From the NCBI GenBank assembly GCA_002700365.1, contig PADB01000012.1, positions 434,001-498,000 of the forward strand: 64,000 nt of DNA, read 5' to 3'. The notes below the pieces were generated by a model, which worked only from the letters and a program-made list of their open reading frames with translations, was not told the origin of the DNA and did no database searches. A program made the position numbers and the translations under genes. This DNA is from Kordiimonas sp. (GTDB taxonomy: Bacteria > Pseudomonadota > Alphaproteobacteria > Sphingomonadales > Emcibacteraceae). Shown here piece after piece: positions 5,716-62,370 of the stretch. How positions within the stretch are numbered: the first letter of the stretch is position 1; every line of letters begins with the position of its first letter.

Positions 5716-5842
5716 CCATTTCTGTCGCAAAAAAATACTTCAGACCGTTTTTTCAACACTTTTTCTTATATTCGCCTTTTCTCTCTTCCGTAAACCGCGC
5801 ATCTATCCTATTTATACGACACTTACGAACAGAGTGAAGCCG

Positions 5843-6181
5843 ATGACAACAGACGCCATACTGAAAAGACAAAACCTCCCCCATACGCAGCTCGAATGCC
5901 AGGATATGCAAGAAGTCCGTAAGGAAATAGACAAATTAGATCAAAAAATTGTTGAACTCATCAGTATCCGTCAGGGCTACATTGAGCAAGCCGGTCATAT
6001 AAAAGCAGATCGTCAGGCGGTACGTGATCCTGAGCGTGTTGAAGATGTTGTGCATAAAGCAAAACAGCATGCACAAAAAGTCGGTGCTTCACCAGAACTG
6101 GTTGAAACGATTTACCGCCCTATGATCGAATGGTGCATCAATTACGAATTCACCGTTTATGATGATAAAGAAGCCAAATAA
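5843..6181 (+). CDS. Chorismate mutase, AroQ class II
   Basis: 112 residues. The region MQEVRKEIDKLDQKIVELISIRQ...IKADRQAVRDPERVEDVV...IYRPMIEWCINYE is the all-helical AroQ fold, with the conserved Arg of VRKEID, Lys of IKADR and Arg of RDPERVE. It converts chorismate to prephenate for Phe/Tyr synthesis; a lyase acting on isochorismate is a less likely alternative. About 20 residues precede the domain. The ATG at 5843 is used; a GTG at 5834 would add three residues. It is a single gene, and its last 25 bases overlap the convergent SOS-linked small gene. Confidence 0.88.
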   Translation: MTTDAILKRQNLPHTQLECQDMQEVRKEIDKLDQKIVELISIRQGYIEQAGHIKADRQAVRDPERVEDVVHKAKQHAQKVGASPELVETIYRPMIEWCINYEFTVYDDKEAK

Positions 6182-6351
6182 GCTTGGCTCATACGCGTCA
6201 GCAGCTTCGCCTTGATAACCTGCTTTTGAACTGAAAAACGACCGCGTTTTGTCTGCATATGGTCTGACATCATTTTGATAATGTCTTTCATACCCCAAGC
6301 GATTACAAAAAGCATTAAAGGTAAAAATATCAAAATCCCAATCATATGCAT
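6157..6351 (-). CDS. Small single-pass membrane protein under double SOS control
   Basis: 64 residues: a hydrophobic helix (about residues 3-21, HMIGILIFLPLMLFVIAWG) and then a basic tail rich in Lys/Arg. The start at 6351 is fixed by GGAGGACAGG at ideal spacing; a GTG five codons earlier lies on that ribosome site. I recognise no family. The promoter region carries two LexA boxes, one identical to that before lexA. SOS-induced small membrane proteins of known function include the Caulobacter division inhibitor SidA and the enterobacterial toxin TisB, so a checkpoint or membrane-active role is a reasonable inference. The 3' end overlaps the end of the chorismate mutase gene on the other strand. 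Confidence 0.62.
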   Translation of the reverse strand: MHMIGILIFLPLMLFVIAWGMKDIIKMMSDHMQTKRGRFSVQKQVIKAKLLTRMSQAYLASLSS

Positions 6352-6375
6352 AAACCTGTCCTCCACACATCATAT

Positions 6376-6390
6376 GTTCTTTTTATGTTC
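6376..6390 (-). promoter_or_regulatory. LexA (SOS) box 1, promoter-proximal
   Basis: Read on the minus strand this is GAAC-ATAAAAA-GAAC, the alphaproteobacterial LexA direct repeat with its 7-base spacer. All 15 bases equal those of the box before lexA in this window. It lies 25 bases before the small-gene ATG and covers the expected -10 area. Confidence 0.85.
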
Positions 6391-6410
6391 CTATCATCTC
6401 ACAGAGTGAA

Positions 6411-6416
6411 TGTAAA
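6411..6416 (-). promoter_or_regulatory. Candidate -35 element between the two LexA boxes
   Basis: TTTACA on the minus strand is followed about 17 bases later by TAGGAA, which begins in box 1. The promoter would start RNA near 6381, giving a leader of about 30 bases with a strong ribosome site. The -10 is poor. Confidence 0.4.
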
Positions 6417-6431
6417 GAACAAAAACAGAAC
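6417..6431 (-). promoter_or_regulatory. LexA (SOS) box 2, promoter-distal
   Basis: On the plus strand this is GAAC-AAAAACA-GAAC, that is GTTC-N7-GTTC on the coding strand. It sits 26 bases upstream of box 1, directly before the candidate -35. A pair of exact boxes flanking one promoter implies tight, cooperative repression. Confidence 0.75.
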
Positions 6432-61604: not shown

Positions 61605-61619
61605 GAACATAAAAAGAAC
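61605..61619 (+). promoter_or_regulatory. LexA (SOS) box of lexA
   Basis: GAAC-ATAAAAA-GAAC matches the alphaproteobacterial LexA direct repeat with its 7-base spacer and lies 38 bases before the lexA ATG: classic self-repression. Confidence 0.92.
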
Positions 61620-61656: not shown

Positions 61657-62370
61657 ATGCTCACCCGCAAACAACATGACCTGCTGATTTTAATTAACGA
61701 CCGCCTGCAACAAACCGGGGTCGCCCCCTCTTTCGAAGAAATGAAAGATGCTGTTGGGTTAAAATCAAAGTCCGGCATTCATCGTCTTATTAACGCCTTG
61801 GAAGAACGCGGTTTTATTCGCCGCCTTCCTAACCGGGCTCGCGCTTTGGAAGTTCTACGTCTTCCCGATGCGGACACATCATCCGCCCAAAACCACACTC
61901 CCTTATCATCAGATTCTGCGGATATTTTACGTCCGGCTTTTGGGTCCTCGCCGCAACCAGTGGCCTCAACGCCAGCCCATGCAGCAACACATGTAGAAAT
62001 CCCTCTCCACGGCCGCATTGCAGCAGGCACACCCATTGAAGCCCTGGAACAAGTTGAAACCATTGATGTGCCGGCAAGCATGATTGGCAGCGGGCCTCAT
62101 TATGCACTAACCGTCGATGGTGACTCTATGGTCGAAGCCGGCATTTTGGATGGTGATACTATTGTCATCCGTCAATGTAATACGGCCAACGATGGCACTA
62201 TTATCGTTGCCTTGGTCGATGGCGAAGAAGCAACTCTTAAAACTCTTCGCCAGTCAGATGGACGTATCTTATTAGAACCGGCCAATCGTGACTACCAAAC
62301 ACAAATTTACCGCCCTGAGCAGGTGCAAATCCAAGGGAGACTTGTTGGTCTGCTTCGCCAATATCACTAG
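61657..62370 (+). CDS. lexA: SOS repressor LexA
   Basis: 237 residues. The winged-helix DNA-binding domain ([42 protein letters not shown]) is followed by a linker longer than in Escherichia and a self-cleaving S24 domain: cleavage bond Ala123-Gly124, Ser157 (DGDSMVEAG) and Lys195 (ATLKTL). RecA-triggered cleavage lifts repression of damage genes. It converges on comEC. Confidence 0.97.

Follow-up and report, generated by a model that had tools for sequence, protein, structure and literature searches.

The idea of an SOS checkpoint on division has entered the textbooks, but its effector has been identified in just a handful of model species. SulA, which blocks division during the SOS response, is a soluble inhibitor of FtsZ. 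YneA of Bacillus, SosA of Staphylococcus, and ChiZ of Mycobacterium are SOS-induced, small, single-helix division inhibitors, with a LysM or an extended extracytoplasmic part of their own. SidA of Caulobacter crescentus is a 29-aa, SOS-induced inhibitor in the inner membrane that binds FtsW, and mutations in FtsW or FtsI overcome both SidA and DidA (PMC4211646). DidA of Caulobacter is likewise a small, damage-induced membrane inhibitor of division; it acts on FtsN (PMC4211646), is independent of the SOS response, and is controlled by DriD. The helix of YneA binds FtsW TM7, and AlphaFold 3 models of ChiZ, SosA, and SidA point, with low confidence, to FtsW TM7 too (PMC13396833).

The gene considered here lies in a window of 64,000 nucleotides, the whole stretch of DNA that was analyzed, from Kordiimonas sp. 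of the family Emcibacteraceae (contig PADB01000012.1, positions 434,001 to 498,000). The original prediction had likened its product to SidA. In control and build the likeness stands: both are very small, single-helix inner-membrane proteins, with one copy per genome and, for the window protein by prediction from sequence, LexA control within the SOS response. It does not extend to membership in the SidA family, which is not supported, given the lack of sequence similarity and the different locus. The window gene lies next to a chorismate mutase gene, whereas SidA-like genes lie before dnaE; the window protein has a longer, variable tail, and its helix is N-terminal, whereas that of SidA is C-terminal. 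When the window family was compared to SidA-like proteins (not Caulobacter SidA itself), the hhalign probability was 0.5% and the HMM score was not significant. Profile comparison of the window family with the Kordiimonas, SidA-like, and Rhodobacteraceae proteins described below gave no detectable homology.

SidA-like proteins of 34 to 37 aa were found in two genomes of the class, each gene having one LexA box and lying directly before dnaE; sidA of Caulobacter itself presumably lies upstream of dnaE as well. A search with the Robiginitomaculum protein described below returned mostly noise; three hits were SidA-like genes that have a LexA box, and of these, two lie before dnaE. The protein of locus L152 (MSLLPLIILAAAMTLAYYGFKDMF), which comes from another family and sits at the Kordiimonas locus, is at best a weak bridge to the window family. 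With YneA, SosA, and ChiZ, which belong to different phyla, no homology was seen. SulA shares with the window protein the role that we hypothesize for the latter, an SOS block of division; its family (Pfam PF03846) had no match over the cutoff in any of the 32 Emcibacteraceae genomes, including that of the window. Our literature search found nothing on LexA in Kordiimonas, and the two papers that name Emcibacter alongside the SOS response do so, judging from their abstracts, in passing only.

The small gene and its promoter

Read on the minus strand, the order of elements is distal LexA box, -35 hexamer, a spacer of 17 bp, -10 hexamer, proximal LexA box, GGAGG, and ATG (Table 1). The original prediction was of two exact LexA boxes flanking the only plausible promoter, the nearer one identical at all 15 bases to the box of lexA. 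This is what we find: both are perfect alphaproteobacterial boxes, they bracket TTTACA-N17-TAGGAA, and the 15-mer of the proximal box occurs at just two places in the 2.4-Mb genome, before the small gene and before lexA.

Table 1. Features of the small gene, its putative promoter, and lexA in the window
Feature	Position	Strand	Remarks
Chorismate mutase type II gene, convergent neighbor	5834..6181	plus	Pfam PF01817; synteny; conserved locus marker
Predicted small membrane protein gene	6157..6351	minus	64 aa; ATG 6351, stop 6157-6159
Shine-Dalgarno sequence GGAGG	6360..6364	minus	8 nt 5′ of ATG 6351; from sequence
Proximal LexA box GAACATAAAAAGAAC	6376..6390	minus	Same as lexA box; conserved in relatives
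Predicted -10 hexamer TAGGAA	6388..6393	minus	Overlaps proximal box; TAGAAC in most relatives
Predicted -35 hexamer TTTACA	6411..6416	minus	Directly abuts distal box; TTGAC- in relatives
Distal LexA box GTTCTGTTTTTGTTC	6417..6431	minus	Conserved in relatives; within the window's family, one mismatch is frequent
LexA box of lexA	61605..61619	plus	Same 15-mer as proximal box; 38 nt 5′ of lexA
lexA	61657..62370	plus	Pfam LexA_DNA_bind and Peptidase_S24

The number of boxes by itself was rejected as evidence, because there is no enrichment over controls in either the window (three exact boxes versus 1.37 expected) or the genome (39 versus 44 for the reversed control pattern). That the box motif is the right one for this organism is shown by its occurrence before lexA, before a Y-family polymerase gene (an exact box), and before recA (a box with one mismatch) in the same genome. 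Judging from the hexamers, transcription would start inside the proximal box and give a leader of about 30 nt. The distal box is 15 bp from the upstream gene. As in operators of the LexA regulon, boxes of the form GAAC-N7-GAAC/GTTC-N7-GTTC overlap the promoter and are conserved upstream of the orthologs. LexA (SOS) control of the small gene is well supported, and we strongly infer it from these sequences.

The predicted ORF of 64 aa with a strong ribosome site was also borne out. A GTG start at 6366, in frame and giving 69 aa, is not favored, since it overlaps the ribosome site, which serves ATG 6351. A transmembrane helix is predicted at residues 3 to 21 (hydropathy 2.48 over those residues); the conserved residues are Pro11, Gly20, and Asp23-Ile24, and a basic, variable tail follows. 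The membrane nature of the protein is well supported, and we strongly infer its insertion into the membrane. From the basic C-terminal side of the helix, a cytoplasmic tail is weakly suggested, and other members of the family show the charge bias faintly or not at all. The predicted topology, with the tail inside, may be the opposite of that of SidA-like proteins. The AlphaFold2 model, one long helix spanning residues 2 to 63 (pLDDT 77, pTM 0.38), adds little. Searches of the window family against Pfam, NCBIfam, PHROG, and PADLOC, and a profile search of PDB, gave no significant family match. The family is undescribed, but its functional kind is known: like the class of SOS-induced small membrane division inhibitors, the gene combines LexA control, at the level of sequence, with small size and a single transmembrane helix.

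The small gene and the chorismate mutase gene are convergent and overlap by 25 bp (6157-6181), and pairing of their transcripts at the 3′ ends is possible. A terminator-like hairpin at 6190-6171 lies within the small ORF and has a poor T-run.

Conservation of the locus and of the double-box promoter

When the 64-aa protein was searched against 60 relatives, the matches were only weak (E values of 0.004 to 0.6), and most of those to short ORFs had GTTC-N7-GTTC and/or GAAC-N7-GAAC boxes in the same place. An HMM of the first 40 residues found orthologs in 27 of 32 Emcibacteraceae genomes, one in each, and three further orthologs in a second family of the order; the five Emcibacteraceae genomes with no match are drafts of 64 to 90% completeness. 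With the window protein left out of the model, an HMM still recovers it, with an E value of 1.3e-9 at Z=1000. In the HMM search over the class, matches outside the window's genome were mostly parts of long ORFs and were discarded as false positives, and six matches in family f6 of the order were treated likewise.

The locus is the same in all 20 loci fetched from two families, with the chorismate mutase gene adjoining in 18 and a TPR/SPOR gene in 2. The upstream gene varies (a hydrolase gene in the window, an enoyl-CoA hydratase gene in L133, and a GGDEF gene in L156), which argues that the small gene is on its own promoter. No division gene is linked to it. Close pairs of relatives give a dN/dS of 0.10 to 0.48, with in-frame indels, and by this comparison the ORF is under purifying selection in the relatives. 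The conserved part is limited to about 30 N-terminal residues, M(D/E)xLLHxxGLxFIPxMxxxLxxGxxDI, with tails that vary in length and sequence. Two genomes have a complete version of 32 aa, MDILLHxAGLAFIPIMxYILVLGFQDLYRLSA, ending right behind the helix, and one has a version of 43 aa. Given the variable tails and these naturally short versions, the helix and Asp-Ile are the core of the protein, and the short versions show that this core is enough for the gene to be retained.

The original prediction had asked for a search of related genomes for the protein and its upstream boxes, and would have been undone by close relatives lacking the boxes and the open frame. The orthologs keep both. The box tally was made by hand and covers the 27 Emcibacteraceae loci in which the start or the boxes could be located by script: allowing one mismatch at most, 26 have a distal box and 24 a proximal box (20 of them exact). 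A -35 element lies just behind the distal box in nearly all of them, and the common promoter of the family reads box-TTGAC-N17-TAGAAC-box, with the start codon close behind. A strict double-box pattern (box, TTGAC, spacer, box) was found in 25 of 198 genomes of the order, at exactly one site each, and the reversed pattern in none; every one of the 25 sites precedes a single-helix ORF of 43 to 74 aa. Because of this difference from the reversed pattern, and because the boxes recur upstream of the family orthologs, the pair of boxes with its putative promoter is beyond chance. When 385 genomes from across the class were sampled, a relaxed pattern was found in one, at a site in a GC-rich stretch that is unlike a promoter.

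A scan of 84,980 named genomes for the promoter only gave 33 sites. Five of them precede recA or imuAB, with the recA assignment for L142, on a truncated contig, resting on shared neighbors. The other 28 precede a single-helix ORF of 34 to 74 aa, and they come from Emcibacteraceae, Kordiimonadaceae, Rhodobacteraceae-labeled and similar genomes, and one Robiginitomaculum (Caulobacterales-like). In the Kordiimonadaceae, the small gene is divergent from ppx-rlmE-guaB; at the Rhodobacteraceae-labeled and similar sites, proteins of 38 to 41 aa are encoded, mostly 3′ of recG; and the Robiginitomaculum site, with a full double-box promoter, precedes a SidA-like 34-aa ORF before dnaE (the names ppx, rlmE, guaB, recG, and dnaE are our reading of the translations). 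A phage origin was rejected: the double-box promoter had no match in viral contigs, and PHROGs gave nothing significant.

A putative division inhibitor and its alternatives

We think it fairly probable, by analogy, that the window gene is the SOS division inhibitor of its lineage, with a helix that acts on the septal wall synthase (FtsW/FtsI/FtsN). Without DNA damage, LexA dimers would occupy both boxes, one abutting the -35 hexamer and one covering the -10 hexamer and the start region, and would shut out RNA polymerase. RecA on single-stranded DNA would then bring about LexA cleavage and open the promoter, and we imagine that the mRNA, with its short leader, would be translated efficiently. 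The helix, with its conserved Pro, Gly, and Asp-Ile, would insert in the inner membrane and most likely bind the septal peptidoglycan synthase complex (FtsW, or FtsI/FtsN), keeping the complex inactive; division would be delayed until LexA returns. The septal synthase is the most likely target since SidA binds FtsW, mutations in FtsW or FtsI overcome SidA and DidA, and the YneA helix binds TM7 of FtsW. Both the division inhibition and the FtsW target are proposed solely by analogy to SidA and YneA, and in view of the lack of sequence homology to the SidA-like, Rhodobacteraceae, and Kordiimonas counterparts, a shared target is unproved.

SOS control through two boxes, a small product, and one hydrophobic helix would also suit a membrane toxin of the TisB/DinQ type, which would depolarize the membrane and promote dormancy, and tight double operators would befit a harmful product. 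TisB and DinQ of E. coli are themselves SOS-induced single-helix membrane peptides, DinQ being toxic (PMC3567139). However, they are restrained by antisense RNA on longer leaders, whereas at the window locus the short leader and the nearby upstream gene leave no room for an antisense-RNA gene. With no Rfam match either, we rejected control of this kind, and the analogy to TisB made in the original prediction is weak. The helix is plainly hydrophobic, and a gene that nearly all of the family has and that is under purifying selection is more like a checkpoint gene than a toxin-antitoxin module; a toxin therefore seems improbable to us. Many small single-helix proteins regulate larger membrane proteins, and one can envision the window protein as an SOS-induced adaptor or regulator of some other inner-membrane machine (a protease such as FtsH, a transporter, or a respiratory or lipid enzyme) that has no direct effect on division. 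This would agree with the lack of a linked division gene, and the window protein has a basic tail with which it could bind a partner. Yet the tail is not conserved and is missing from the 32-aa members, and division is what the characterized single-helix proteins of the SOS response (the SidA, YneA, SosA, and ChiZ type) act on, making such an adaptor unlikely. Finally, an ORF and boxes that arose by chance would be in keeping with exact boxes being no commoner in the genome than the reversed control. We give this practically no weight, as dozens of genomes keep the locus, the promoter, and the reading frame, which refutes it.

The window gene is an effector candidate for families with no recognizable SulA, and one pinned by its promoter rather than by its sequence. 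The same promoter rule finds counterparts in Rhodobacteraceae and in the Caulobacterales-like genome, and it offers a simple route to candidate division inhibitors that homology searches miss. We suggest, tentatively and with somewhat less confidence than for the window gene itself, that many Alphaproteobacteria have one LexA double-operator gene each for a tiny single-helix protein, and that these proteins were repeatedly exchanged for others or diverged past recognition, with the promoter design and the target in division remaining constant. Emcibacteraceae would have the gene by the chorismate mutase gene, Kordiimonadaceae opposite ppx, and Rhodobacteraceae after recG, with the genes for the SidA-like proteins lying before dnaE. 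Were this so, the checkpoint would be one of rapid turnover, and the window gene would be an undescribed analogue of SidA, one among several. It raises the question of whether unrelated helices of 30 residues converge on one face of FtsW.

Further observations lie outside the window. An exact LexA box, GTTCTGTTTATGTTC, lies at G000 C4:149806-149820, 289 bp 5′ of mraZ, with which the division and cell-wall cluster begins. Two Kordiimonadaceae genomes and one genome of another family also have exact boxes 220 to 238 bp 5′ of mraZ, and such a box is absent from most Emcibacteraceae; the GTTCTGTTTATGTTC box may serve a divergent gene instead of mraZ. At six of the Rhodobacteraceae-labeled loci (L131, L137, L139, L144, L151, and L160), the ORF of 38 to 40 aa may encode the SOS inhibitor of division in that group. 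In L137, three GTTC half-sites spaced 7 bases apart, making two overlapping boxes, lie 5′ of the -35 element of the 39-aa ORF, hinting that more than one LexA dimer may bind there.
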